A stretch of DNA of 39,935 nucleotides, taken from Saccoglossus kowalevskii (taxonomy: Eukaryota; Hemichordata; Enteropneusta; Harrimaniidae). The number at the start of each line of letters is the position of its first letter. The stretch's first letter is position 1. The DNA is taken from contig NW_003112499.1 in NCBI RefSeq assembly GCF_000003605.2, positions 30,774 through 70,708 of the forward strand. Reading direction: 5' to 3'. The position numbers were made by a program, and so were the translations under genes. Under the pieces are notes generated by a model, which was given only the letters and a program-made list of their open reading frames with translations, was not told the origin of the DNA and searched no databases. Below are positions 6,301 through 38,781 of the stretch, piece after piece.

Positions 6301-9300
6301 CTCTAGGTTTTGATCACAGATTGCCACAGTTATGTATCCTCGGGCAGCTTTGTATCATGTCAGTCAACTATTTCATATACATACCATGTTTCCCTCTCCA
6401 GCTGCAATTCGTTGTTTTGTTTTTATCACTGATATTTTTTTTTTATTTGCCCTCCTCCCCCAACTTCCTGTAACAACTATTAACATTTTATTGACTCGTG
6501 ATCCTTATTAACAGAAGATACTGCTACCAGTGGTTACCAGCGTAAGTTGTTTATCTTACATCTCATATCATCATCACACTTAATTCTTCTTCTAATACAA
6601 ATTAAAAAAGAAATTAAAATGAATCATAAGGATTCTGGGTTGAACAATGTGTTTGATTCAATAAGGCCAGATGTCATATTGATGTGAAAAACTTGATGAT
6701 AAGCAAACATCCCTATCAATCTGCAATAGTGGTATATTTTCTCAGTAGAATAATATGAAGACAAACTACAGCAATTACAAGGGTGTATGTAGAGATTCAG
6801 TAATAGTGTATTTTACATAAACATCTTTCAGAAAACAAGATATCTCTGGGGACCTGTCATCAAGTGTTTCTAAATACTGTATTTGCTCTATTAGAAGCAC
6901 CATAGTTAATATAATATATAATGGTGATGGTTGCTACAGTTAGACTGAGATGTATTAAAGTATTAGAATCAGCTCTGTAGAAACTGTGCTGATTTGCTAC
7001 CCACACATCTCAGTCTCTCTGTAATATCTGGTTTTCATTGTAAGGTGCTATAGGATGGTTGCACTTTATACATGCCTCTATGGCAGTGTGTTTCTAATAG
7101 AGGAAATACAGTATAATCCTGTAAAAGAAAAAGAAATACAAAACAGCCAAACATAATCACTATAAGAATAGTATTTTAATATGCATGAAACTAAGAATTA
7201 TTAATAAAAGTACATGTAACTGCATGTGCATTATTATTGGAATGTTGGTGATGTTGTGTTTATATTGATTTTAATATTTCTTATATATTTGCATGATATT
7301 AAATGTTTTTTTCACGTGGTGTAATGTGTTTGCATCTTATAGGAGATGATTATAGGGCTAGAAAATGTAAGTGGCTTCAAATAAGAACACCTGCTATCAC
7401 TGATATATTATATACTGCTAGTAATTATTGTTTGTGGTGGTTTAATATATTATGCACTGATATGTGTCACATGAATTGCTGAGTTCAGTACACTGGCTCA
7501 TTACACTTGTTACTCAGTTTTGTTCAAATGTATATGCACAGATTACAGTTTGCAATACATACAATAAGTCATGCCTGTAGCAATGAAACTATTCTGACAC
7601 TTATATAGATGTATACATTGGTAATCAACCTTTTCACCACCAGACTTTCCCATCCAAATTTGTCTGCACTCTTTTCTGATATTCTTCAATATTTCTGGAA
7701 ATAAATTCTAATTTTGAAGCCAACAGACAAAATTTGCGTCAATTTTAAGTTTTTACTAAAAAATTTGGCTATTTTTGTCCAAATATACCGAAAGAAAGTG
7801 CAGACTATAAACAGGACTATTTTGTTAATTTGTGATGAAAAGAGGGATATGGTGGAGAAAAGTTAATGTTGCTGTATTCTCTTGTTTATTTGATAGAGAA
7901 TTGTTTATATCCATCTATTGTATGTGTTTTGACTCTTGAGGACATAACTTATTTATTGTATTACTTTAATTTTATGTGATCATACAGTAATTATGTCTAT
8001 AGTTTGTTTAGTGGGGTAATTCTGTTTGCTAGATTTTGTTGTATATCCTGTATATACCAGTATATATATATATATATGTATGTATGTGTGTGTGTGTGTG
8101 TGTGTAAGTGATTTTGTGGTGACAGGGGTATGTATGGAACCAACTTTAGCAAAGTACATGTGAATTGCATTGGCCGTAATTTGTGAAAAGTAGTTGGTTG
8201 TAAAGTGTACCATATGCAAGCACTAAAACTAGCGAGTATGGGGAATAAATATAACAAGTACAGATAACACACATAACATATATATTGCAATAATATGTGT
8301 AGACCCTAATAGTTTCATTTTGGTCACTATGGTGTGAAGTTCATGAGTGATAATGACAGATTTCACAGTCTGTCAGATTCTGTATTGTCTAAAATCCTAG
8401 CTTCATTTATGCACTGACCATGGTTAATGAGATAATTGATTGTTTAATATCTCCTTCTTTAAACTATGTATGTAACCTTGTATGTGTAGAATTGTCTTCA
8501 ATATTTAAAGTAGGTTTTGAGTGTATATGTCATGATTGTGATCAAAGTTTAGTTGGTGTTGGCCTACAGAGCTGCTCAGTGATATCACCAAGTTACTCAG
8601 TGATGTCACTAAGTTACTCAGTGATGCCAACAAGTTACTCAGTGATACACCAAGTTACTCAGTGATACACCAAGTTACTCAGTGATATCTCAAGTTACTC
8701 AGTGATATTTCAAGTTACTCAGTGATATTTCAAGTTACTCAGTGATATCACCAAGTTACTCGGTGATATCACCAAGTTACTCGGTGATATCACCAAGTTA
8801 CTCAGTGATATCTCAAGTTACTCAGTGATATCAACAAGTTACTCATTGTGGACTTTATTTCCGTGAACTATACCTCCTACACAAGCACTGTGAACAAGCA
8901 ACTGTATTGATCAACCTGAACTTGTATCTAACTTTACTTATTAACTGCCTAACTTTGGTAACTTTCCTTACCTGACAATTGACTAACAACTCTTGCCTAA
9001 AATAACCATAATTTCAATGAATAGTTTGCCTAACTCAGCGGATTATTAAATTCAAGGGTGTATAAATAATACCTGGGAATTGTAATCTACAACTCCACAA
9101 CTCTACAACAGCCTAACTCCACAATTGCCTAACTTAGCAGGCAAAAAACACTGAATATTAAATTAGCTTTGCAGACTCTAATTATACTATCTATTTACAC
9201 AATGCAGGTGCAGCGATAAACGGTTGCAGTAATCAGTCGCAGATATTTTCTATTTCACCTTCACACACTTCTCACTAATGTACTGTGTATGTATGTACTG

Positions 9301-21300: not shown

Positions 21301-24300
21301 TTCCAGAAGTAGCAAACTGTTGCAGAATGTTATTTTAAAATGTTAGTCCTAATGACTTCATTCATTGTATCAAAATCTGTAAGCTTTGTGATTTCATTGA
21401 ATAAATAAATTACTTTCATTTCGTTTTTTATCTGCACCCTTCATAGTGACGAGTTCTGATTAGTGAGTCTACACATTGTATGTTTGGTAAAATGTTTATT
21501 GCTACATATGAAAAGGTACATGTAAATTCATGAAGTAGGAATAACACAATCTGCAGTTATTGACAAAACACCATATTTGGTAAACAAAGTATATGACAAA
21601 TGTACTTAGACATGAAGTTTGTCATTTAGCCAGCAATAACATAATAGATTGTATTCTCTTTACTGATAAAATTACTGTAATTTGAACTATCAAGCTAGTC
21701 CCTCAAGTCATGTGCTAGTAATCTGCGACAGTTTGACTCAATCTTTTGAATATATTTTTTGAAACTAACCCTTCTCTTTCACTCCCAATGTATTAAAAGT
21801 TATATTATATTCAATATTGTGACATTTGGATAAACTATATGGCATCATAGTTTAAACTAAAACCAGACTAGTAGAGCTGATAGTAACTCCATTTTTTGTG
21901 TGACATTGATAGAGCTGCAGTCAAAGCTGTTGTTGATCGTCTCACACTAGCAGCATACACCACCACTGCAAAGAGTCTATTAGAAAGGGACAGAATTATT
22001 TATTCCATTCTCCTTGCACTAGAGGTATGTCACTAAATCTTTTGTATTATCTGTTATGCATGCTTATAATTGGTCCAAACATGGAGCTAACCCGTGTGTG
22101 TTTTATATATACACGTACTGATAATTTGTATATATTTACATTGCTAAATCACATCACTACGTTATGTTGGGGTAAACAACGTATGTATGACACATGTCAC
22201 CCAAATAAATGGTCACTGAATCAATGTGTCGATTACCAATTCGGATCACTAAACAGTCTCTGAATCAACATGTTCGATTACCAATTCGGATCACTAAACA
22301 GTCTCTGAATCAACATGTTCGATTACCAATGCGCATCATAACAGTCTTGAATCAACATGTTCGATTACCAATGCGCATCACTAAACAGTCTCTGAATCAA
22401 CGTGTTCGATTACCAATGCGCATCACTAAACAGTCTCTGAATCAACGTGTTCGATTACCAATGCGCATCACTAAACAGTCTCTGAATCAACGTGTTCGAT
22501 TACCAATGCGCATCACGAAACAGTCTCTGAATCACCGAGTTTGATTACCAATTTACATCACTAAACAGTCTCTGAATCAACGTGTTCGATTACCAATGCG
22601 CATCACTAAACAGTCTCTGAATCAACGTGTTCGATTACCAATTCACATCACTAAACAGTCTCTGAATCAACGTGTTCGATTACCAATGCGCATCACTAAA
22701 CAGTCTCTGAATCAACGTGTTCGATTACCAATGCGCATCACTAAACAGTCTCTGAATCACCGAGTTTGATTACCAATTTACATCACTAAACAGTCTCTGA
22801 ATCAACGTGTTCGATTACCAATGCGCATCACTAAACAGTCTCTGAATCAATGTGTCGATTACCAATGCGCATCACTAAACAGTCTCTGAATCAATGTGTC
22901 GATTACCAATTCACATCGCTAAACAGTCTCTGAATCAACATGTTCGATTACCAATGCGCATCACTAAACAGTCTCTGAATCAATGTGTCGATTACCAATG
23001 CGCATCACTAAACAGTCTCTGAATCAACGTGTTCGATTACCAATTCACATCACTAAACAGTCTCTGAATCAACGTGTTCGAATACCAATTCACATCACTA
23101 AACAGTCTCTGAATCAATGTGTCGATTACCAATGCGCATCACTAAACAGTCTCTGAATCAATGTGTCGATTACCAATGCGCATCACTAAACAGTCTCTGA
23201 ATCAATGTGTCGATTACCAATGCGCATCACTAAACAGTCTCTGAATCAACGTGTTCGATTACCAATTCACATCACTAAACAGTCTCTGAATCAACGTGTT
23301 CGATTACCAATGCGCATCACTAAACAGTCTCTGAATCAACGTGTTCGATTACCAATGCGCATCACTAAACAGTCTCTGAATCAACATGTTCGATTACCAA
23401 TTCACATCGCTAAACAGTCTCTGAATCAACGTGTTCGAATACCAATGCGCATCACTAAACAGTCTCTGAATCAATGTGTCGATTACCAATGCGCATCACT
23501 AAACAGTCTCTGAATCAACATGTTCGATTACCAATTCACATCACTAAACAGTCTCTGAATCAATGTGTTCGATTACCAATGCGCATCACTAAACAGTTAC
23601 TGAATCAACGTGTTCGATTACCAATTCACATCGCTAAACAGTCTCTGAATCAACGTGTTCGATTACCAATTCACATCGCTAAACAGTCTCTGAATCAACG
23701 TGTTCGATTACCAATTCACATCGCTAAACAGTTACTGAATCAACGTGTTCGATTACCAATTCACATCGCTAAACAGTCTCTGAATCAACGTGTTCGATTA
23801 CCAATTCACATCGCTAAACAGTTACTGAATCAACGTGTTCGTTTACCAATGCGCATCACTAAACAGTCTCTGAATCAATGTGTTCGATTACCAATGCGCA
23901 TCACTAAACAGTCTCTGAATCAACATGTTCGATTACCAATTCGAATCACTAAACAGTCTCTGAATCACCGAGTTTGATTACCAATTTACATCACTAAACA
24001 GTCTCTGAATCAACGTGTTCGAATACCAATTCACATTGCTAAACAGTCTCTGAATCAACGTGTTCGATTACCAATTCGCATCGCTAAACAGTTACTGAAT
24101 CAACATGTCCAATTACCAATTCACATCGCTAAACAGTTACTGAATCAACGTGTTTGATTACCAATTCGCATCGCTAAACAGTTATTGAATCAACATGTTT
24201 GAAATCTTGAATGATATTTTACTGACAGGTTGAAGATTCTGAGGGTCATCTTGGTCCAGGTGAGAGAGAATTCCTTGTGTCTCCTAACTTTGGTGCATCA

Positions 24301-27300
24301 GTAATGCAGGCAATCGGAAAGGCTGTACCACCTGATCACAGAATTGCACAAGCTAAGAAACCATTTGATTGGATGTTAGATGATCAATTCCACAACTTAC
24401 AGGTGAGTACACAGTGAAATTATGTGTTTTTTTCTGATAATATTTTGTATTATCTGCTAGACAGATTTGAGACTGTAATAAAATAAATGACAAAAAAACA
24501 CATATGCTAGCGATGTGTTGAAAAAAGAATGGTGCAGTTTAACGCATCAGAAAGTCTCCACTGACGACTGCCATTAATAGTCCCCGTTTGCAGTCCGAAA
24601 ACGGGGACTTATGTTTTGACCTCCGTGCGTCTGTGTGTGCGTCCGAACCTGTATCTTAGAAATGCCTGGACCAATTACAATCAAACTTCACACATACATC
24701 ATACATGATATCATACATATGCACATCAATTTGTTTCATGATCTGATTCAAGATGGTCGATTGGCTGTCATTTTTGTTTCTCGTTTGTTAACAGATGGAT
24801 TTTGTTCAAACTTAGTATATACATTGGACATTAAAGGACCTTGATGCACATCATTTTGTTTTTCAGATAAGATTCATAGTGGCCGACTGGTGGCCATTTT
24901 GTTTTAATGAATGTGGTTCTAGTGCCATATCTCTGACTTGCTATGACTTATTATGTTCAAATTTTAAATATTCATTATACATCATGTCATAGATAGTGGT
25001 TTGACGATCCTATTAAAAATGGCCTAAAAAATCAAGCATTTCTGGCATCTTATGGATGGATTTTGTTCAAACTTGGTACATACATTAGACATTAAGGGTC
25101 ATTGACTATGTTCAAATTTTATATATTATTTATACATGTATTCAAAATGGCTGATTTTGTTTTAATTAATGCTGTTCCAGAGCAATAACTCTCAATACTC
25201 GTTTGACGATCAGATACAAATGTCAATCATTTAAATGTTAAACAATCATCATAATCATATTCCTGACATGTTTATATTCCAGCTATATTACTATAAACAA
25301 AACTATATATCTTAAACTCGATAACTAACGGGGACTGTGCCATGCATGGCTTGTTTATTTTTGAAGTCACCTGCACAGTGAATGCTGTTTATGTACGAGA
25401 GTTGAGAAAGGATTATGCACTTGTAATTAAAATTACTAATAAATGAGAAGACAAAACACATCAAATGCACAGTGGCATACAAGCATTCATATCTCCCTGG
25501 TGTTTTTTAAATAAGTTCTCATTTTATCAAAAACTGAAGAAATCAGTGGAAAAATATAGTTTTTGATATTGCAGATTTTGTCATACCTATACCAGCCAAG
25601 TACCCCACCCCACCCCTCAGTGTGTAGGGGTCCATTCTCAGTTACCAGCCTCATGCAGGAGTCATTTCTATTTTACTTCTAATTCATTTTGTCTCCAGCT
25701 ACTTGGTATTCATTATGAGTGGTTCCAAGAGATGTTTGAACGCATGCCAAAAGATGGGCGTGAAACCCAGTGGCGTACAATGGGTGAGCATGAAACACCA
25801 GAACTGTCACCATTACCGGAAAGAATGGATGAGATTTATTCCCCAATTCAGAGGCTGCTAGTGATGAGAGCTTTCAGACAAGATAGACTCATGCAAGCAG
25901 CTACTGTCTTTGTCACGTCTGTACTTGGCAAAAAGTGAGTCGTTTTCTATATTTTATACTTAATTTAAATATTAATCTCACACACTGTATTACTGTTTTA
26001 TTATGTATAACATTTCTGACAAAGCATGGTATCCAATGTATTAGCATTCCTTTCCCAATGTTTTTTGTGCAGCACTGAATCAAATTTGATGTAAGCAATG
26101 TATTTTATACACATTGTATCAATCACTTATTTAACATAACACAGCAAGACGACCAATGCCCTTTTACTTTCATTTGGTTTATAGCATGCACTGAGCCCTC
26201 TAGTGTCAACTATGCTCCAAGTTATCCCCAAACTTCACATAAAGTTATAACGCTCAAATAATGAAAATCATTGTTTTCTTTTCTCTTTTTTTCATCTATC
26301 ATGTCAGGTTACATTATTTTCTTTCTGATTTCAAAATATCTAGATATGTTGGTGATGTCCCCGCTGACCTTAACCAAGTACTACGTCAGACTTTCCCCAC
26401 GTCTCCCATTATGTTGATGTATACAAATGAGAGTGAAACGCCAGAGAGAATGTTCTTAGAATGTGGTCTTAAGAAACAGATTGCCACCACTATAGTACCA
26501 CTCTATAATGCAGGACATAATGAGGAACGAAAGGCACGAAAAGTTATCAAGAAAGCAATGGAGGAAGTAAGTTGCACATCAACTCGCAAGCACACTGTAC
26601 AATTCTAATGACCATTAACTCCTCTGATGATTTTTCTACCAAATATAAATAAAAGCACTTATTTATTTATTAAAATCTACCAAATATAAATAAAAGCACT
26701 TATTTATTTATTAAAATCTACCAAATATAAATAAAAGCACTTATTTATTTATTAAAATCTACCAAATATAAATAAAAGCACTTATTTATTTATTAAAATC
26801 TACCAAATATAAATAAAAGCACTTATTTATTTATTAAAATCTACCAAATATAAATAAAAGCACTTATTTATTTATTAAAATCTACCAAATATAAATAAAA
26901 GCACTTATTTATTTATTAAAATCTACCAAATATAAATAAAAGCACTTATTTATTTATTAAAATCTACCAAATTCCGTCTACACATGGATGTTTGCTAAGG
27001 TTTGTGATTGAAACATGATTGAACAAGCACTGATCACATGGCTCTATTTTAGGTTTCACACACCAATTATAATTTGTATCAAAACATGGGTCCATTTATT
27101 TACATTCCTTGTTTTCTTTTCATAGGGTTCATATGTATTGCTACAGAATGGTCATAACTCATTGCATTTATTGAACTCACTGGAATCATTGCTTCTGGAT
27201 GTTCAAAACCCTGATCCTAACTTCCGTTTGTGGATAACAGCTCAGATTACTCCCAAGATTCCAGTCAGACTTTTACAGATCTCAGCAAAGATAGTAGTGG

Positions 27301-35912: not shown

Positions 35913-38781
35913 GTGTGCAAAAGCTTCAAAACCTCCTGAGCGAATTTTGATCAAATTTGGTACTTAGGTACTGTGGGATAATGTGCAGACATGATTGATT
36001 TTGGAACAGTGTCCGTGCATATTAAGTAGCTAATTTGCATATTGTCTCATTTCAATCTGTGTAAGCAAAATTTCAAAAACTTCTCAGCAGATTTTGATAA
36101 ATGTTACATCAAATGTTAAATGTATGTGTCTGTTCTCTTTAATCCTAAAAGATGCATTGATGTCACTGTTGTTATGACAGTAATAAATCAGTGAATTTAT
36201 CACTATATTTTCTTAGATGTAGCTATATCAGTTCAGATGGCACTTATACAAAGGATAATTGCATATTGGTATTTGACTGGGTTCCTCATTACTTTTCAGG
36301 TCCGTCTTTAGTTAATGTTACATCAGTTGCCTCAACAATGGCTGTGGATGTGGCCAACCAGGGTGTTTATGCCAGTGCTAGCTTCATAGCAGCAAAGAAT
36401 AGAAAAGATACAGAAATCTGGGAGATTTGTCATACATTGCTTCCTAAACTACCCAGGGGGTGGAACAGGGTAAGTGGCATCAGAGAATTTATTAGACAGT
36501 ACAAGTCTGGTGAATCATACAACTGCTTGCATGTAGTTAACATTAACTGTTCTTCTCTGCAACATATCATGAGAAATGATGGCATATACAAACAAGAAAA
36601 CTAACAGTTTCTAAAGAATTGAGTTTGACGTTTTTTTGACCAAGCTGACTAAGCTCTGTAAAAGCATTAGTCTCCACCAAACCAGCTTCAATGAATCTTA
36701 AATTCGTTAACTAACAGGGACTGTGCCATGCATGGCTTGTTTCAAAAATGATTTAATAGTATGCATAATTTATTGTACTATTCAGGATTACATTGCTGAG
36801 AGAGTTAAGAAGATTGGTGGTGACACTCCATTCAATCGATTTATGTTGAGAGAAATAGATATGATGATAAATCTGCTTGCAGAAATCAGACTGTCCTTAC
36901 AGGTAAGCATGTAGAACTGGGTTAGGTATCAGACTGTCTTTACAGGTAAGCATGTAGAACTGGGTTAGGTATCAGACTGTCTCTACAGGTAAGCATGTAG
37001 AACTTGGTTAGGCATCAGACTGTCTTTACAGGTAAGCATGTAGAACTGGGTTAGGCATCAGACTGTCTTTACAGGTAAGCATGTAGAACTTGGTTAGGTA
37101 TCAGACTGTCCTTACAGGTAAGCATGTAGAACTGGGTTAGGTATCAGACTGTCCTTACAGGTAAGCATGTAGAACTTGGTTAGGTATCAGACTGTCCTTA
37201 CAGGTAAGCATGTAGAACTGGGTTAGGTATCAGACTGTCCTTACAGGTAAGCATGTAAAACTGGGTTAGGTATCAGACTGTCGTTACAGGTAAGCATGTA
37301 AAACTGGGTTAGGTATAAGACTGTCCTTACAGGTAAGCATGTAGAACTGGGTTAGGTATCAGACTGTCCTTACAGGTAAGCATGTAAAACTGGGTTAGGT
37401 ATCAGACTGTCGTTACAGGTAAGCATGTAAAACTGGGTTAGGTATAAGACTGTCCTTACAGGTAAGCATGTAGAACTGGGTTAGGTATCAGACTGTCGTT
37501 ACAGGTAAGCATGTAAAACTGGGTTAGGTATAAGACTGTCCTTACAGGTAAATACAAAAAACTGAAGTATAGATTTTAGAGGCATACATCTGGCAGTATA
37601 ATAACGAAATGTCATGTACTAATATTGAATCTTTATAAAAACATCAAATAAACTCTTTTATTTCGTTAGACACTAAAACAAATAACAGAGAATCCAGTTG
37701 GATTGTTTGGGGATAGATTATCAGAGAAGTTACTGTCCATAGCAGATGATCTATACAATCAACGTGTACCTGAGGCTTGGCGTAAACTGGCTGGTGACTC
37801 AGCCCCACCATCAAACTGGCAACTGGCATCCTGGTTTGCTGACCTGCAACAAAGGTGTCAACATTTTGAAAGAATATTGGTCTTGGTAAGTCAACATAAT
37901 AGAAATCAGATGATATCTTTTTTCTTATGTCTGTTGTGTTCTCAATATCCATATACAATTGACTGTTCAATTCCAAACAAGCTCATTATTTTTTTTATCA
38001 AACTAATTTATTTGAAAGTCTACATGAAAACATGTCAACATAAAAATGGTGCATGATTATCAAATATGGCATATTCAAATTGCTCTATCATAACAGATTT
38101 ACTGTTACTGCAGTTATTTATTACATTTAATTTTATTTATTTTGCAGGGACGGGATAAGTTCCCTGCATTCTGGCTTGGTGCATTTTTCTACCCAAGAGC
38201 ATTACTGGCTATGATTAAACAAGAAGCTATGCGAATATATGGCTCGCAGACTAGCCAGGTGGAACCATTCGTATTCCAAACTGAAATCACAGCAAGGGAT
38301 AAAGATCATGTAAGTATATCAGATTCAGTTACTGGTAACATAGTGGTTGTTGCTACAGATTCAGTATGGACCATGGGAAGTTTTGATGTATTTTCATATG
38401 TACTGCATGTAATACTGTATTAATAATATATCATTTACTTCTTATTTTACCTAGGTGAGAGACCCTCCCCAAGAAGGTGTATTTGTACATGGAATCTTCA
38501 TGTGGGGCTGTACATGGGAGAAAACAACCGGTGAACTACATGACACCCCACCAAAACATGGTCCAACCCCTCTACCTATTGTCCATATCTTGTGCATGCC
38601 TCAGAGTGAAAAACCTGCACTAAATGACCCACAGAAAGCAGCTGAGACTTATGCATGCCCAGTATACCCGTCACGGATATGTCCCCGTGAACCTGTAATG
38701 GTCATGGATGTCCGTCATGACAGTGTACCCGCACAGCGTTGGGCACTGCGTGGTCTCTCAGCTACTATCAGGCCTTACTGA
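215..38781 (+). CDS. DNHD1: Dynein heavy chain, 3' part (28 candidate exons), DNHD1-like
   Basis: This is the spliced coding span of a dynein heavy chain, a AAA+ microtubule motor subunit. The joined exons keep one open frame of about 1614 residues to the stop at 38779-38781. Visible regions are the end of stalk coiled coil 1 (residues 1-60), microtubule-binding domain (60-255), coiled coil 2 (255-370), AAA5 (375-690), AAA6 (730-1190) and C-terminal domain (1200-1614). The family layout is clear from FRLYL, CDP, RAFRQDRL, LLQNGH, RYLLTEITYG, RVPEAWRKL and FWLGAFFYPRALL. Usual signatures are altered: IDPQ is CDPT, the GLFLEGARWD-type motif is GIFMWGCTWE, and PPKGLRANLL is missing. That argues against ordinary axonemal, cytoplasmic or IFT heavy chains and favours DNHD1, which is linked to sperm flagella in mammals. 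The DNHD1 name is an inference by elimination; dynein heavy chain identity is firm. The 5' part of the gene is outside the window. Confidence 0.8.
1093..1117. repeat. (AAT)n microsatellite
   Basis: Eight or so ATA/AAT triplets in a row, inside the long inverted-repeat element. Confidence 0.9.
2287..2306. repeat. (GT)n microsatellite
   Basis: About ten GT dinucleotides, inside the long inverted-repeat element. Confidence 0.9.
4146..4166. repeat. (ACT)n microsatellite
   Basis: Seven ACT triplets in intron 1, about 230 bases before exon 2. The rest of 3986-4395 shows nothing else I can name. Confidence 0.85.
4396..4654 (+). CDS. DNHD1: Exon 2: start of the microtubule-binding domain (residues 49-134)
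   Basis: After the acceptor gtctcag the exon reads VFHWKSKVDRACIERL, then LRSFQNPPLIVLQVMEMV, the counterpart of the family's IKS..PP..V..VMEAV motif at the base of the microtubule-binding domain. The second half (about residues 90-134) is serine-, glycine- and lysine-rich (SGRQSTSSGASKSPTKGW), looks disordered, and has no counterpart in ordinary heavy chains. The donor is aaa|gtaagc, leaving one base of a split codon. Confidence 0.92.
4778..4993 (+). repeat. Interspersed repeat family A, copy 1
   Basis: A stretch of about 216 bases running from gtttaacctacca to ctggtgttaaac. It reads like the reverse complement of copies at 7627-7866 and 33053-33255. Shared core words include tagaaatattgaagaatat and ttttcatcacaaa. 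The ends are roughly inverted (accta/ctggtg type), so a short MITE is likely. Confidence 0.7.
5061..5188. repeat. Small foldback element
   Basis: ttttccctcaaataatgttc at the left and its reverse complement, with one extra base, at the right (gaacattattttgaggggaa). The arms are about 24 bases with a loop of about 80, so the segment could form a hairpin. It lies in the intron between exons 2 and 3. Confidence 0.65.
5190..6514 (+). other. Intron sequence without recognised features
   Basis: AT-rich intron. The words ctctattagaagcg near 5666 resemble one arm of the MITEs at 6877-7111 and 32778-32947, possibly a decayed single arm. Otherwise I see nothing to name. Confidence 0.5.
6515..6541 (+). 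CDS. DNHD1: Candidate 27-nt microexon in the microtubule-binding domain (exon 3, residues 135-143)
   Basis: Acceptor ttattaacag at 6505-6514 and donor c|gtaagt at 6542 bracket 27 bases. In the phase left by exon 2 they encode KDTATSGYQ. Exons 2 and 4 join in the same phase with or without it, so inclusion would add nine residues to the serine-rich loop near the stalk tip. The frame match could be chance; the strong gtaagt donor is the main support. Confidence 0.42.
6877..7111. mobile_element. MITE-like element B, copy 1 (TA-flanked)
   Basis: Termini ctgtatttgctctattagaa and its near-perfect inverse (ttctaatagaggaaatacag) are flanked by TA on each side (6875-6876 and 7112-7113). The element is 235 bases with no coding capacity. 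The TA duplication and length fit a Tc1/mariner-type MITE. Confidence 0.7.
7627..7866 (-). repeat. Interspersed repeat family A, copy 2
   Basis: Inverted relative to the copy at 4778-4993. It shares atattcttcaatatttct, gccaacagacaaaattt and tgatgaaaagaggg. The ends are caccaccag and ggtggag, an imperfect inverted pair. Confidence 0.7.
8061..8105. repeat. (TA)n-(GTAT)n-(GT)n compound microsatellite
   Basis: TA repeats pass into tgta units and then about twelve GT dinucleotides. This lies in the intron before exon 4. Confidence 0.9.
8571..8847. repeat. Tandem repeat of ~20 bp, about 14 copies
   Basis: The unit caagttactcagtgatatca recurs with variation in the last few bases (gtca, aca, ttt, tct). 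Units are 19 to 21 bases, so no frame is kept. The array is in the intron before exon 4 and looks non-coding. Confidence 0.85.
8848..9481 (+). other. Intron sequence without recognised features
   Basis: Contains loosely repeated words such as cctaact and acaactc between 8935 and 9135, but no clear repeat unit, gene or motif. Confidence 0.5.
9482..9691 (+). CDS. DNHD1: Exon 4: microtubule-binding domain core (residues 144-213)
   Basis: Acceptor ctgtgcag, donor g|gtaagt. A basic run (PKKDEDKERKAKWKQIQ) leads into LNDSVKFVDMLHNVRWEDGI, which matches the family's KKLLGD..FLDSL..YDK..I segment that forms the central helices of the domain. The end (GDGVTGEGSLLDVPG) begins a second glycine/serine-rich insert. 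Placement between exons 2 and 5 is fixed by phase. Confidence 0.9.
9784..10022 (+). CDS. DNHD1: Exon 5: end of microtubule-binding domain, start of coiled coil 2 (residues 214-293)
   Basis: The exon opens with a serine-rich loop (SSSLPDSKKRTLSPSNSGG), then TLVAYTCAIVEYSHKCGPLR, the counterpart of the family's L..W...ME.Y..V...V.P segment. It continues into EALRKLDDLEKEKEENERLQ and a very charged R/E tract, the descending stalk helix. The intron before it is only 92 bases. Donor cga|gtaagt. Confidence 0.92.
10023..13882 (+). other. 3.86 kb intron without recognised features
   Basis: AT-rich intron. I see no coding exon that fits the phase between exons 5 and 6, no clear repeat and no RNA gene. 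A GC-richer patch at about 11690-11790 is discussed under rejected items. Confidence 0.55.
13883..14085 (+). CDS. DNHD1: Exon 6: stalk coiled coil 2 (residues 294-360)
   Basis: Acceptor cccatttag, donor aa|gtatgt. It encodes a strongly acidic stretch (EIEEEEPEADIEYVEDD), then DVDVLQAEFDASVVDKHSLEMK and NERLRAATEMIH. The last part corresponds to the family's C..KL.RA..LI..L motif, where the stalk returns to the ring. Coiled coil 2 is some 20-25 residues longer than I expect for typical heavy chains, mostly through the charged stretch. Confidence 0.92.
14086..14879 (+). other. Intron 6, no recognised features
   Basis: 794 bases of intron with GT-AG ends. No repeat, RNA or exon candidate recognised. 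Confidence 0.6.
14880..15008 (+). CDS. DNHD1: Exon 7: end of coiled coil 2 into AAA5 (residues 361-403)
   Basis: Acceptor ttctattcacag, donor ag|gtaata. Reads NLRSKESHWREYVKDNSQ, then LLLFNCLAAAGFLTYCAPMVPDTR. This matches the family pattern L..EK.RW...... followed by GD.LL..AFLSYLGPF...YR, the start of AAA5, although the GD and YLG residues are changed. Confidence 0.93.
15088..15328. repeat. 51-bp tandem repeat, 4.7 copies, intron 7
   Basis: Units start at 15088, 15139, 15190, 15241 and 15292, the last one partial. A typical unit runs from gcaattatgc through acccattttctaatgtaacag to gttgaaccct. Each unit contains a pyrimidine stretch, a ctaat word and a cag, so each resembles a 3' splice site. 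The real acceptor of exon 8 is 64 bases beyond the array. The 51-base unit keeps frame on the opposite strand by arithmetic only. Confidence 0.9.
15393..15501 (+). CDS. DNHD1: Exon 8: AAA5 (residues 404-440)
   Basis: Acceptor cttcttcacag, donor aag|gtaaga. Encodes RRRFIAEFTKICSDKGLKEP and FNNLSLIEFLYTK, the counterpart of the segment between the YLG motif and the GLP.D...EN motif of AAA5. Confidence 0.92.
15502..15812 (+). other. Intron 8, no recognised features
   Basis: 311 bases with GT-AG ends and no repeat or RNA recognised. Confidence 0.6.
15813..15995 (+). CDS. DNHD1: Exon 9: AAA5, LPMTPSVQENA and CDPTSRVQDWL (residues 441-501)
   Basis: Phase 0 at both ends, 61 codons. LHLPMTPSVQENACLMMQQ aligns with GLP.D..SIEN....... 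and WNLICDPTSRVQDWLYKYL aligns with WPLMIDPQ.QA..WIK, a hallmark of AAA5. The usual IDPQ is CDPT here. Confidence 0.93.
15996..16355 (+). other. Intron 9, no recognised features
   Basis: 360 bases with GT-AG ends; AT-rich, no repeat or RNA recognised. Confidence 0.6.
16356..16511 (+). CDS. DNHD1: Exon 10: AAA5 (residues 502-553)
   Basis: Acceptor gttttgacag, donor aat|gtaagt, 52 codons. It encodes NLLVTDCDVDALAEDGRFFQ and RQPFKMN, the counterpart of VLIEN..E.LDP.L.P.L and the strand leading into LGD.EV..NP.F in AAA5. Confidence 0.92.
16512..17202 (+). other. Intron 10, with two adjacent perfect hairpins
   Basis: 691-base intron. It holds two inverted repeats: catagacagtata/tatactgtctatg (16839-16851 and 16861-16873) and aatgagtatg/catactcatt (about 16886-16908). 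Nothing else was recognised. Confidence 0.7.
17203..17412 (+). CDS. DNHD1: Exon 11: AAA5, VGDHEVECSPSFRLYLHT (residues 554-623)
   Basis: 70 codons, phase 0 at both ends. VGDHEVECSPSFRLYLHTT matches the family's LGDKEVDYNPNFRLYLTTK closely. The following segment, YTAVTYFYQVRHDIEEELLD, replaces the usual VTLINFTVT.EGLEDQLL, and FMTLEKARLNDEKLSLSQ starts the AAA5 strut (buttress) helices that contact the stalk. Confidence 0.94.
17413..17775 (+). other. Intron 11, no recognised features
   Basis: 363 bases with GT-AG ends; no repeat or RNA recognised. Confidence 0.6.
17776..17921 (+). CDS. DNHD1: Exon 12: AAA5 strut helices (residues 624-671)
   Basis: Acceptor gattgcag, donor ag|gtttgt, a weaker donor than its neighbours. 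HLESLEKQMLECLAGDTRLL followed by VTTKKLAEMKKHYDETLE matches the family's LKELED.IL..LS.SEG.IL.D..LI..L..SK region. Confidence 0.93.
17922..18316 (+). other. Intron 12
   Basis: 395 bases. A perfect TGACGTCA octamer lies at 18153-18160 with CCAAT words on both sides (about 18144 and 18183). Function unknown; see findings. Nothing else recognised. Confidence 0.6.
18317..18502 (+). CDS. DNHD1: Exon 13: end of AAA5 into AAA6 (residues 672-733)
   Basis: Acceptor tttcttctag, donor ag|gtaaga. IKNAREGYRAVALRGAVCFD matches I...R..Y.PVA.R.S.L.F, and EINPIYQTSWQQFLETYDVS matches the IDPMYQ.SL..F...F..SI motif. Both are well-conserved landmarks in dynein heavy chains. Confidence 0.95.
18503..18668 (+). 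other. Intron 13, part before the gap
   Basis: Intron sequence from the exon 13 donor to the assembly gap; nothing recognised. Confidence 0.6.
18669..19512. other. Assembly gap (844 N)
   Basis: All bases are N. Exons 13 and 14 join in phase and match the family without missing residues, so the gap probably hides only intronic sequence. What else it hides cannot be seen, including any nested gene or element. Confidence 0.99.
19515..19586 (+). other. Tail of an open frame running out of the gap
   Basis: From the gap edge a frame reads REEQTSILCKRLNELFDTA, four more residues, then a stop. The stretch is richer in GC than the surrounding intron and looks protein-like, but it does not belong to the dynein frame because exons 13 and 14 join without it. 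It may be the 3' end of an element or nested gene hidden by the gap. At 23 codons it could also be chance. Confidence 0.25.
19678..19835. repeat. Degenerate short tandem repeats (tcgcatatggc-like)
   Basis: Words such as actcgcatatgcca, actagcatatggca and actcgcatacggca recur about every 25 to 35 bases. The pattern is irregular and looks like a decayed minisatellite or an element terminus next to the gap. Confidence 0.55.
19836..21912 (+). other. Rest of intron 13, no recognised features
   Basis: About 2.1 kb of AT-rich intron. No exon in the right phase, RNA gene or clear repeat was recognised. Confidence 0.5.
21913..22024 (+). CDS. DNHD1: Exon 14: AAA6 (residues 734-771)
   Basis: Acceptor cattgatag, donor gag|gtatgt. 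Reads AAVKAVVDRLTLAAYTTTAK and LLERDRIIYSILLALE, which match L..RI..L....T..VY....RGLFE..KL.F...L in AAA6. A start two bases later would hit a stop, so 21913 is chosen. Confidence 0.93.
22213..24200. repeat. 45-bp minisatellite, about 44 copies, intron 14
   Basis: The unit runs tctctgaatcaacgtgttcg, then attaccaatgcgcatcacta, then aacag. Variants are gcgcat/tcacat/tcggat, acgtg/acatg/atgtg, and a one-base deletion (tgtgtcg) that makes 44-base units. The aatcaacatgttcgatt core is nearly palindromic. The array ends 28 bases before exon 15, so it fills the region where the branch point should be. Several units in a row stay open as SLNQRVRLPMRITKQ, but the 44-base units shift the frame; I treat it as non-coding. 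Confidence 0.93.
24229..24402 (+). CDS. DNHD1: Exon 15: AAA6 linker segment (residues 772-829)
   Basis: Acceptor ttactgacag, donor cag|gtgagt, 58 codons in phase 0. It encodes VEDSEGHLGPGEREFLVSPN, then a variable segment, then KKPFDWMLDDQFHNLQ. It corresponds to the less conserved part of AAA6 that contains the family's W.....W..I..L motif. Confidence 0.88.
24579..25362. mobile_element. Interspersed element C, ~0.78 kb, non-coding
   Basis: It opens with a hairpin (agtccccgttt...aaaacggggact) and closes with taactaacggggactgtg followed by the palindrome gccatgcatggc. The same closing stretch recurs at about 36706-36742, so both belong to one repeat family. Internally, words such as ggattttgttcaaacttggt occur twice about 280 bases apart. 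No protein domain was recognised. The class is uncertain (MITE, SINE or Helitron-like). Confidence 0.6.
25363..25698 (+). other. End of intron 15, no recognised features
   Basis: Ordinary intron sequence leading to acceptor gtctccag. Confidence 0.6.
25699..25934 (+). CDS. DNHD1: Exon 16: AAA6, PIQRLLVMRAFRQDRL (residues 830-907)
   Basis: Reads LLGIHYEWFQEMFERMPKDG, then SPIQRLLVMRAFRQDRLMQA and VFVTSVLGKK. This is the AAA6 landmark F.RLL.LR..RPDR......F....LG, with FRQDR in place of LRPDR. Donor aa|gtgagt. Confidence 0.95.
25935..26343 (+). other. Intron 16, no recognised features
   Basis: 409 bases with GT-AG ends; no repeat or RNA recognised. Confidence 0.6.
26344..26566 (+). CDS. DNHD1: Exon 17: AAA6 core (residues 908-982)
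   Basis: Acceptor aaaatatctag, donor gaa|gtaagt. SPIMLMYTNESETPERMFLE replaces the family's P..F.LSPG.DPT..L..F, and IVPLYNAGHNEERKARKVIK replaces ISLGQGQ.P.AE..I. The usual LSPGSDP and GQGQ signatures are therefore both absent, while the spacing is kept. Confidence 0.93.
26636..26972. repeat. 41-bp AT-rich tandem repeat, 8 full copies plus 9 bases
   Basis: Units start at 26636 and every 41 bases to 26923, with a partial unit at 26964. The copies appear identical. The unit begins ctaccaaatataaataaaag and holds a short dyad, ataaataa...ttatttat. It starts 70 bases after the exon 17 donor. Perfect identity suggests very recent expansion or an assembly artefact. Confidence 0.93.
27126..27311 (+). 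CDS. DNHD1: Exon 18: AAA6, YVLLQNGH and FRLWITAQ (residues 983-1044)
   Basis: Acceptor tttcatag, donor agg|gtaagt, 62 codons. SYVLLQNGHNSLHLLNSLE and PNFRLWITAQITPKIPVRLL match the family's WV.LQNCHLA..W...LE and FRLWLTS.P...FP...LQ. The usual NCH is NGH. KIVVDSPR ends where others read ..T.EPPKG. Confidence 0.96.
27312..28510 (+). other. Intron 18, no recognised features
   Basis: 1199 bases of AT-rich intron; no repeat or RNA recognised. Confidence 0.55.
28511..28570 (+). CDS. DNHD1: Exon 19: 60-nt exon resembling the start of exon 20 (residues 1045-1064)
   Basis: Acceptor cttctttctag and donor aaa|gtaagt bracket 20 codons, KLKDSMIYSMSLLLDTENLK, phase 0 at both ends. The first 19 residues of exon 20 (VMKDNMIRALCVLDAETLK) are similar, nine identical with one gap. 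Either exon could follow DSPR in the family alignment. With exon 20 alone the domain has the usual length; adding exon 19 inserts 20 residues. It may be included, skipped or alternative. Confidence 0.6.
28571..31656 (+). other. 3.1 kb intron without recognised features
   Basis: AT-rich intron with several ttaccggta-like palindromes (about 29919 and 29972). No exon fitting phase 0 to phase 0, repeat array or RNA gene was recognised. Confidence 0.5.
31657..31851 (+). CDS. DNHD1: Exon 20: end of AAA6 (residues 1065-1129)
   Basis: Acceptor attttgacag, donor ttt|gtgagt, 65 codons. After VMKDNMIRALCVLDAETLK comes WPPMIHNLCLLHGAIRLRAR and FGHAGWNRPYSMDFGSTELF. This matches WKKLLFGLCFFHA.VQER..FG.LGWN.PYEFN.SDL, one of the best-conserved segments of the family. 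Confidence 0.96.
31852..32414 (+). other. Intron 20, no recognised features
   Basis: 563 bases with GT-AG ends; no repeat or RNA recognised. Confidence 0.6.
32415..32631 (+). CDS. DNHD1: Exon 21: IRYLLTEITYGSHIMDDFDQ (residues 1130-1201)
   Basis: Acceptor tcatag, donor t|gtaagt. WLGIRYLLTEITYGSHIMDD followed by FDQVSLAALIEYW matches L.YL.GE.NYGGRVTDDWDRR.L...L..F, the landmark between AAA6 and the C-terminal domain. The usual GG is GS and the double R is lost. Confidence 0.96.
32778..32947. mobile_element. MITE-like element B, copy 2 (TA-flanked)
   Basis: Termini ctgtataatctgtattagaa and ttctaatacagattttacag are inverted copies of each other with TA on each side (32776-32777 and 32948-32949). 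The element is 170 bases. The shared ctgta...attagaa word links it to 6877-7111, though the interiors look different. Confidence 0.7.
33053..33255 (-). repeat. Interspersed repeat family A, copy 3
   Basis: Same orientation as 7627-7866. It shares tattcttcaatatttct, aaaaaatttggctatttttg and gtgatgaaaggaggg. Ends are caccaccag and ccggtggta. Confidence 0.7.
33544..33674 (+). CDS. DNHD1: Exon 22: start of C-terminal domain (residues 1202-1245)
   Basis: Acceptor gatcccaccag, donor gag|gtaaga. LKYKIPAAFFNPNIRVANLL and NLPNHALDVPEACSIHFSME correspond to Y..P......Y...I..LP..D.PE.FGLH.NA.I. The usual FGLH is CSIH. Confidence 0.92.
33675..35631 (+). other. Intron 22, no recognised features
   Basis: About 2 kb of AT-rich intron. 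Near 34365-34680 there are several aaatcaattgattgatt-like and attcaaatcat-like words, but no defined repeat unit. Confidence 0.5.
35632..35749 (+). CDS. DNHD1: Exon 23: C-terminal domain (residues 1246-1284)
   Basis: Acceptor gacttgcag, donor g|gtaaga. It encodes TNLGDDQYVFTRLNAIIDAM and LIERPPTPQTG. It fills the poorly conserved segment after FGLH; identification rests on phase and position more than on motifs. Confidence 0.85.
35869..36130. repeat. (GTCT)n microsatellite with attached repeat-like sequence, intron 23
   Basis: About nine tctg units (35871-35919) are followed by two diverged copies of a module (caaaagcttcaaaacctcc...gaattttgatcaaatttgg and caaaatttcaaaaacttctc...gattttgataaat). 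Modules like this next to CTGT tracts are common in marine invertebrate interspersed repeats. Confidence 0.6.
36300..36469 (+). CDS. DNHD1: Exon 24: C-terminal domain (residues 1285-1341)
   Basis: Acceptor cattacttttcag, donor agg|gtaagt. GPSLVNVTSVASTMAVDVAN precedes KDTEIWEICHTLLPKLPRGW. The second part corresponds to the I...I...LP..F segment upstream of the VLLQEI.R motif. Confidence 0.9.
36706..36742. repeat. Fragment of element C (3' end)
   Basis: gttaactaacagggactgtg followed by ccatgcatggcttgttt repeats the end of the element at 24579-25362 with one substitution. Only the terminal part is present. Confidence 0.7.
36786..36902 (+). CDS. DNHD1: Exon 25: FNRFMLREIDMMINLLAEIR (residues 1342-1380)
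   Basis: Acceptor gtactattcag, donor cag|gtaagc, 39 codons in phase 0. TPFNRFMLREIDMMINLLAE matches P...VLLQEI.RYN.LL..I of the C-terminal domain. Its last 18 nt (encoding IRLSLQ) and its donor are repeated 15 more times in the array that follows. The first donor must be used: any later one reads V-S-M-stop. Confidence 0.94.
36903..37547. repeat. 43-bp minisatellite carrying an exon-intron junction, exactly 15 copies
   Basis: 645 bases, 15 units of 43. Each unit is gtaagcatgtagaactgggt, taggt, then atcagactgtccttacag or a near copy. The last 18 bases match the end of exon 25, so every unit boundary reads ttacag|gtaagc (ctacag once; the final one is ttacag|gtaaat). Variation is light (g/a in tagaac, tatcag/tataag, tcctt/tcgtt), and units 9-15 show a repeated two- or three-unit pattern. 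The array starts exactly at the donor of exon 25. Confidence 0.97.
37670..37885 (+). CDS. DNHD1: Exon 26: C-terminal domain, RVPEAWRKL (residues 1381-1452)
   Basis: Acceptor tttcgttag, donor ttg|gtaagt, 72 codons. LYNQRVPEAWRKLAGDSAPP and NWQLASWFADLQQRCQHFER match the family's ..VP..W....YPS.KPL..W...L..R..F. The SY.SLKPL part is replaced by GDSAPPSNWQL. Confidence 0.96.
38148..38309 (+). CDS. DNHD1: Exon 27: C-terminal domain, FPAFWLGAFFYPRALLAMIK (residues 1453-1506)
   Basis: Acceptor tttattttgcag, donor cat|gtaagt, 54 codons. FPAFWLGAFFYPRALLAMIK matches P..FWLSGFFFPQAFLTG.LQ. VFQTEITARDKDH matches the L.F.F.V......... segment. Confidence 0.97.
38455..38781 (+). CDS. DNHD1: Exon 28: end of C-terminal domain and stop (residues 1507-1614)
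   Basis: Acceptor attttacctag. VRDPPQEGVFVHGIFMWGCT matches PP.DGVYV.GLFLEGARWD. TPPKHGPTPLPIVHILCMPQ matches S.PK.L....PV....P. TYACPVYPSRI matches Y.CPVYKT, and RWALRGLSATIRPY stands for W..RGVALL. The protein ends 14 residues after RW, as in other heavy chains. The ARWD and STNFV features of axonemal forms are missing. Confidence 0.97.
   Translation: MRDPPQEGVFVHGIFMWGCTWEKTTGELHDTPPKHGPTPLPIVHILCMPQSEKPALNDPQKAAETYACPVYPSRICPREPVMVMDVRHDSVPAQRWALRGLSATIRPY

Follow-up and report, generated by a model that had tools for sequence, protein, structure and literature searches.

In the 39,935-nucleotide stretch of Saccoglossus kowalevskii DNA analyzed here (the window), the end of a dynein heavy-chain exon and the start of the following intron are repeated a further 15 times in tandem, and we consider the resulting array most likely to be a neutral minisatellite that is harmless within the intron. 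Normal splicing would join 36902 to 37670 and remove the array with the intron, perhaps accompanied by a minor ladder of later-donor transcripts, every one of which would carry a stop. The preliminary description had named neutral slippage as the simpler alternative to a recursive splicing (ratchet) point, and our analysis supports that alternative.

A repeated exon-intron boundary

36885-37551: tandem array, period 43, 15.5 copies, 95% matches, 0% indels, TRF score 1187
36902 + 43n: 16 junctions, TTACAG or CTACAG followed by GTAA, the first being the exon end
36902-37670: splice of the array-bearing intron, 767 nt

The array is gap-free and consists of 15 full units and then a 22-nt partial copy, with each 43-bp unit joining 18 nt of the dynein heavy-chain exon end to 25 nt of the intron start. 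As a repeat it exceeds chance, and the 43-bp junction array with 16 boundaries that had been claimed initially is confirmed. Six of the 43 columns of the unit are variable; at unit position 12 the 15 full units have C in eight, T in four, and G in three, so that three boundaries read cgttacag. One boundary reads ctctacag, and the final donor is gtaaat, not gtaagc. These readings correct the boundary originally proposed, (ctgtc)(c/t)ttacag^gtaagc or a near copy.

The exon at the array start belongs to a dynein gene, given that Pfam Dynein_C matches the joined C-terminal exons (E = 3.4e-48) and that there are PDB matches to dynein heavy chains, in agreement with the earlier assignment. Its numbering as exon 25 could not be confirmed: our rough gene finder predicts 29 exons, several of them doubtful, and places this one 26th.

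Five arrays lie in the window, of which 0.24 would be expected to straddle a splice junction (P = 0.22 for at least one). Straddling beyond chance was not found among these five arrays, its frequency being about that expected by chance.

Splicing at the repeated boundary

The array donors are strong (84th percentile), and the splicing machinery faces sixteen near-equal cut sites. Read-through past 36902 appends V-S-M and then a stop, the open frame ending in VSM, as had been stated for the later donors; we translated the extensions for the second to fourth array donors, and because the stop sits within the first added unit, all later donors carry it. On this basis the preliminary description suggested that copy number could tune expression of the dynein, which here stands as a hypothesis.

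That the units serve as recursive splicing points is a weak alternative. The layout noted at the outset is present in that AG directly abuts GT at every boundary, and joining donor 1 to the AG of any unit would recreate an identical junction, but the acceptor-like halves of the units are weak, lying in the 4th-19th percentile of 47 predicted acceptors compared with the 43rd for the true acceptor of the intron. A single unit of 43 nt would also make a shorter intron than any predicted here (66 introns, minimum 70 nt, with the finder's own lower limit at 45 nt), although a span of at least two units would suffice as intron length. In flies, recursive sites stand out by the unusual strength of their 3' splice sites and occur commonly where introns exceed 40 kb (PMC6110457), in contrast to the weak acceptor halves here and a host intron of 767 nt. 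Array units and predicted acceptors could not be told apart by branch-point words: yUnAy occurs in 11 of the 15 later units and 38 of 47 predicted acceptors, and CTRAY in none of the 15 and 11 of the 47.

Relation to other arrays

The array fits the amphioxus "mirage" minisatellites, in which an exon-intron boundary likewise stands in tandem copies and which are described as leaving regular splicing undisturbed. The repeat type is thus one described before in lancelets; the mitochondrial gene order speaks against a lancelet as host, so mirages may be more widespread than reported. Further arrays of this kind in this genome are as follows.

GLUT-type transporter gene: array with 4 donors
Second dynein gene: array with 3 acceptors
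C1595: donor-type array, weaker exon evidence
C2732: array, weaker exon evidence
C4138: array, weaker exon evidence

Acceptor-likeness is not common to every donor-type array of the genome, the C1595 units falling at the 0th percentile. The C4138 array is a better ratchet candidate than the dynein array.

Anatomy of the Array and Its Dynein Exon

The array is a 43-bp minisatellite at the end of a dynein heavy-chain exon, and its unit, ATCAGACTGTCCTTACAG/GTAAGCATGTAGAACTGGGTTAGGT, is repeated without a single indel. The features of the locus are listed below, with a slash marking the exon-intron boundary.

Features of the array and the flanking dynein exons (window coordinates, all on the plus strand; basis in parentheses)
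36786..36902, dynein heavy-chain exon whose last 18 nt form the exonic part of the unit (gene finder, Dynein_C and PDB matches)
36885..37551, minisatellite of 43-bp units, 15 complete ones followed by a partial copy of 22 nt (TRF, unit alignment)
36900..36908, first donor CAG/GTAAGC, most likely the one used (donor score, protein line-up)
36943..37510, 14 more donors CAG/GTAAGC, identical, at 43-nt steps (unit alignment, scores)
37229..37529, higher-order pattern of unit variants, A-B-C, A-B-C, B, in units 9-15 (unit variants)
37545..37553, sixteenth donor CAG/GTAAAT, at the right array edge (sequence, unit alignment)
37548..37669, intron right of the last junction, 122 nt, single-copy except for its first four bases (sequence)
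37617..37623, TACTAAT, putative branch point for the real acceptor (CTAAT, with its A lying 48 nt upstream of the exon)
37650..37669, real acceptor AAACTCTTTTATTTCGTTAG/A, outside the array (score, gene finder)
37670..37885, next dynein exon (gene finder, Dynein_C and PDB matches)

The joined C-terminal exons match Pfam Dynein_C with an E value of 3.4e-48, and a 142-residue query matched 36 distinct PDB sequences at E values below 0.001, the best being 5.4e-12, mostly named dynein heavy chains. Exons were predicted with a self-written gene finder, trained on 1876 codons of this genome's dynein exons with both array-flanking exons included; its exon chain is rough, and it places an intron of 767 nt between exons 36786-36902 and 37670-37885. 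Joining the donor at 36902 to 37670 gives IRLSLQTLKQ, which by eye aligns with IRISLQNLQK of the paralogue on contig C2973. On these predictions the edge copy is the authentic boundary, the other copies are intronic, and the join keeps the dynein reading; the 122 nt right of the last junction are likely the original intron. The preliminary description held that any later donor would add V-S-M and then a stop, and translation bears this out for the second to fourth donors; as the stop falls in the first added unit, it holds for all later donors too. In none of nine paralogues compared by eye (C1729, C3467, C655, C1959, C3780, C2973, C4775, C3687, and C1171) does the same intron occur at the same codon, being either absent or at another codon.

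The window is C669:30774-70708 of the genome (4830 contigs, 572 Mb), in which a query of 885 bases from the locus matches that locus alone, and tRNA and Rfam searches of the window returned nothing. Only 6 of the 43 unit columns vary among the 15 full units, and columns 14-29, over the junction, are invariant. Given six variable columns, the chance of a 17-column invariant core is 0.04 and that of an invariant 9-nt donor alone 0.22, so weak selection on the junction is possible. The block pattern of units 9-15, which the partial sixteenth copy carries on with C, is by its variants the trace of recent copying of several units at once; together with the lack of indels and the few variants it points to a recent expansion.

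Compared with the rest of the window, the 21-nt non-exonic part of the unit matches nowhere over 10 nt or more. What follows the array on its right side agrees with this part at 10 of 21 positions (shuffle P 0.03), with a run of 7 (P 0.003), a match count that 3% of the 21-mers of the window equal; in view of this slight likeness the array may end on the right in a full copy that has decayed. Birth of the intron from the array was rejected, as the acceptor at 37650-37669 lies outside it; intron gain by tandem duplication would place both splice sites in copies of a single exonic segment.

Strength of the Splice Sites

Sites were scored with position weight matrices derived from predicted sites of the array gene and its paralogues, using 45 of 48 donors (two false last-exon ends and the array's own donor were dropped) and 47 of 48 acceptors (37670 was dropped); the predicted sites were seeded from a generic consensus, which biases the matrices towards consensus-like sites. 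Donors 1-15 stand at the 84th percentile of the 45 predicted donors with leave-one-out scoring (76th without), and donor 16 at the 51st (40th without). The acceptor-like halves of the units reach the 4th-19th percentile of the 47 predicted acceptors, and the real acceptor at 37650-37669 the 43rd. Among intronic AGs lying clear of the main arrays, 7% of 1414 score at least as high as the AG of the first unit, and 3 of 48 predicted exon ends, the array exon's own counted, are as acceptor-like as the end of the array exon. On these scores the array amounts to strong donors in series, with acceptor-like ends that are weak.

Every one of 20 shuffled sequences folds better than the array (z +3.69), which thus appears to hold no structural element; on the same result we rejected RNA structure as a means of hiding donors. 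In the model, access to the inner donors is poorer than to the first and last ones, and for some of them it falls under the minimum of 47 other donors, a weak result.

Origin of the Array

The array most likely is neutral. We put at roughly 0.78 the probability that it is a minisatellite of the mirage type, the kind known from amphioxus genes as tandem copies of an exon-intron boundary, which expanded within an intron and is tolerated since normal splicing removes it. From the observed anatomy, unit variants, donor and acceptor scores, and further arrays in the genome we infer an order of events, a choice of donor, decay, and neutrality, as follows. A short tandem duplication, reaching from within the last 18 nt of the exon into the intron, would have come first, and the 43-bp unit would then have been amplified by slippage or unequal exchange, in part as multi-unit blocks. 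Since the true exon end is still the copy furthest to the left, the added copies would all be intronic, and a splice from the first donor to 37670 would take them out and let them be tolerated. With 16 near-equal donors, later ones are probably used at times, giving transcripts with an in-frame stop that would be expected to decay. That the first donor wins is our assumption. In duplicated-donor experiments the intron-proximal site is often the preferred one, and such a preference would result in many stop-bearing transcripts. The choice of donor is described as hinging on context and SRSF1 (excerpt of PMC5585400).

The base rate at which an array straddles a junction was modeled by randomly placing one unit per array against 150 predicted junctions in 87 kb, made up of the window and 48 kb of paralogous dynein loci. 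For the five window arrays 0.24 straddling arrays are expected, with a probability of 0.22 for at least one. For nine arrays the expectation is 0.75, and two were seen (P of at least two 0.16), in a set formed under mixed rules, with at least 4 copies required in the window and the straddling 2.9-copy array of L020, a second dynein locus, admitted from the paralogue loci. Uniform rules, applied after overlapping TRF rows had been merged to one and a spurious exon inside the array at 8575 removed, gave 8 arrays of at least 4 copies and a period of at least 20, of which 1 straddles (0.49 expected, P 0.40), and 10 arrays of at least 2.5 copies, of which 2 straddle (0.77 expected, P 0.17). Chance suffices to account for the straddling, and a modest excess is possible.

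Two window arrays lie near predicted exons: a 45-bp minisatellite of 44 copies at 22212-24199 ends 29 bp before a predicted exon at 24229, and a 41-bp unit present in 8.2 copies with 100% matches (26635-26972) begins 69 bp past a predicted exon end.

Boundary Arrays Elsewhere in the Genome

Genome scans for three tandem YNCAGGTAAG words found at least 11 loci, nine from one scan and two from a second, whose pattern omits arrays beginning GTAAGC, and more loci may exist. The triple word occurs at 405 places versus 9 for the reversed word, the latter on 3 contigs, and many of the 405 belong to a satellite on C3517. Single words number 4267 versus 3078 reversed, and the looser AGGTRAG in triplicate occurs at 8533 places versus 4259, places that are clustered and not independent. 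The number of loci is too small for a claim either way on splice-junction words as hot spots. The C3517 satellite begins at position 21, has the 25-bp unit TACAGGTAAGCCTACATGGGACACA, is kilobases long, and is built of donor-like words. Flanks were read at nine of the ten other loci, with C3517 left out, and four of these nine arrays sit at candidate exon boundaries; they are listed below together with the dynein paralogue L020.

Boundary arrays at other loci of the genome
C3687:182531-185689, 1067-1537 (L020, dynein paralogue), acceptor boundary (intron-acceptor-exon segment) in three copies spaced by about 156-165 bp, upstream of a dynein exon
C2790:12200-13300 (L067, GLUT-type sugar transporter), exon end copied, donors at 625, 677, 729, and 782
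C1595 (L065), eight tandem donors, 45-bp unit, plausible exon end
C2732 (L066), four tandem donors, unit of about 50 bp, plausible exon end without domain support, its piece too short for a domain search
C4138:33400-34900, minus strand (L070), acceptor boundary in six copies, 47-bp unit, junctions 767-1002

The transporter array has units of 52-53 bp, 41 nt of them exonic, and two further decayed copies follow its four donors. Joining its first donor to the next exon gives a 57-residue piece that matches Sugar_tr with an E value of 1.7e-13 (6.5e-6 for the downstream exon by itself), and the upstream frame with the repeat retained has no Sugar_tr match. The C1595 pieces have no Pfam match. At the AG/GTAAGA junctions of the C4138 array the acceptor lies at the 66th percentile for the first copy and the 85th for the other five, with the donor at the 69th. 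A candidate exon, for which Pfam gives no support, begins with the last copy. The arrays on C1685, C1919, C2797, C2915, and C4258 have, by eye, no convincing exon at their edge. The units of the boundary arrays (45, 47, 50, 52, and about 156-165 bp) are unrelated, and with the 43-bp unit included the 45-bp unit alone has a length clearly divisible by three.

Alternative Readings of the Dynein Array

Copy number could act as a dial on dynein output, with the use of later donors tracking the number of units and stop-bearing transcripts lowering the yield. Donors 2-15 are copies of the first with the truncating consequence described, but splicing of this kind in UBC is reported as unchanged on ubiquitin overexpression or across mouse tissues (excerpt of PMC10809524), and amphioxus mirages are reported to leave regular splicing unaffected (excerpt of PMC3087553). 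We consider such a dial unlikely.

The preliminary description raised recursive splicing and named neutral slippage as the simpler alternative. In a ratchet the donors and ttacag sites of the array would splice together, rebuild the junction at each step, and correct a wrong choice of donor. Part of this layout held up: AG/GT is juxtaposed at 16 of 16 boundaries, as acceptor and donor are at fly ratchet points (excerpts of PMC6110457 and PMC8605326), and boundaries 1-15, not the sixteenth, are by construction followed 43 nt on by a further donor, which makes the sort of cryptic exon described as a requirement of recursive splicing (PMC8605326, in part). The human UBC gene uses dual-specific sites in tandem repeats, at which weak motifs are said to be enough (excerpt of PMC10809524). 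Branch-point words speak neither for nor against a ratchet: between -60 and -15, yUnAy occurs in 11 of 15 later units and in 38 of 47 predicted acceptors, and CTRAY in 0 of 15 and in 11 of 47. In principle, the normal message would be recovered if donor 1 were spliced to a ttacag, either within the array or following a wrong choice of donor. The strong 3' splice site and the long intron were not borne out: the acceptor halves are weak and the host intron short, unlike those of fly ratchet points as described in the same fly excerpts. A 43-nt unit is below every one of 66 predicted introns (the shortest is 70 nt, with the finder's lower limit set at 45), and the donor-type array on C1595 has units without an acceptor-like end. 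Ratchet splicing here is distinctly improbable; by its scores the C4138 array is the better candidate. An assembly artefact in the copy number, which near-identical units over 667 bp, a stretch of N in the window near 18.7-19.5 kb, and one amphioxus mirage aberrantly assembled in the draft genome (PMC3087553, in part) would allow, is very improbable against an ordered mosaic of unit variants and similar arrays at unrelated places in the genome.

Comparison with Known Systems

The mirage reading has its precedent in amphioxus. Mirages there, in Adh3 and the globins BflGb6 and BflGb9, resemble the dynein array: an exon-intron boundary is copied in tandem in the manner of a minisatellite, often with AG/GT, and the Adh3 units of 10-72 bp bracket the 43 bp seen here. 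Further points of likeness are that copies can arise at the 5' as well as the 3' boundary and that edge copies escape homogenisation (excerpt of PMC3087553). Mirage lengths are described as unstable and their mechanism as unclear, and to judge from Adh3 data and RT-PCR of globins normal splicing goes on undisturbed (same excerpt). The dynein array differs in its gene, its 15 added copies, and the mitochondrial gene order of its genome, which is not that of the lancelets described. It fits the mirage description as far as its anatomy goes, and is a real and tidy case of this already known kind.

The IFI6 (6-16) minisatellite, which Turri reportedly described in 1995 as having multiple splice donors, has a 12-bp unit against 43 bp in the dynein array. 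Like the array it has donors in its repeat units, and donor use is reported for it, two downstream units being said to act as donors (excerpt of PMC4526556). The tandem dual-specific sites of UBC and VCX3A resemble the array in having AG/GT in each unit, but in UBC the 228-nt units are coding and keep the frame, with an intron that spans a whole number of them (PMC10809524, in part), whereas the dynein array is intronic, its 43 nt are out of frame, and the 767-nt intron (17.8 x 43) is not a whole number of units. Variable repeats at human exon-intron boundaries have also been reported and may form introns (excerpt of PMC2812944). Among the literature matches listed, as titles and abstract openings, there was no such array in a dynein gene and no mirage outside amphioxus, which is not proof of absence.

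Three points make the array of interest: donor competition, the likely occurrence of mirages outside lancelets, and C4138 as the better ratchet candidate. The dynein array is a natural experiment in donor choice, presenting the spliceosome with up to sixteen near-equal sites, and boundary minisatellites, which the loci suggest recur in one genome, probably a non-lancelet one, are possible raw material for intron gain and sliding. A wider proposal is that junctions outside lancelets repeatedly become donor/acceptor minisatellites because a repeat starting at a junction is erasable at the RNA level, and that some, above all C4138, where each of six fairly strong acceptors is joined to a strong donor, are ratchet-spliced; this we regard as unlikely.

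At about a third, the G+C content of the window is low for Branchiostoma. Together with the mitochondrial gene order, and assuming that contig C4830 is the animal's own, this suggests that the animal is probably not a lancelet and that mirages likely spread beyond lancelets. The order on C4830 is not among the lancelet orders described in the excerpt of PMC2034537. This contig (L069) is mitochondrial: it carries COX1, TGA is read as Trp, and the stretch counted has no AGA or AGG; cox1 neighbors trnL, trnQ, and trnA and lies between nd1 and cox2, on the strand opposite to these two genes.
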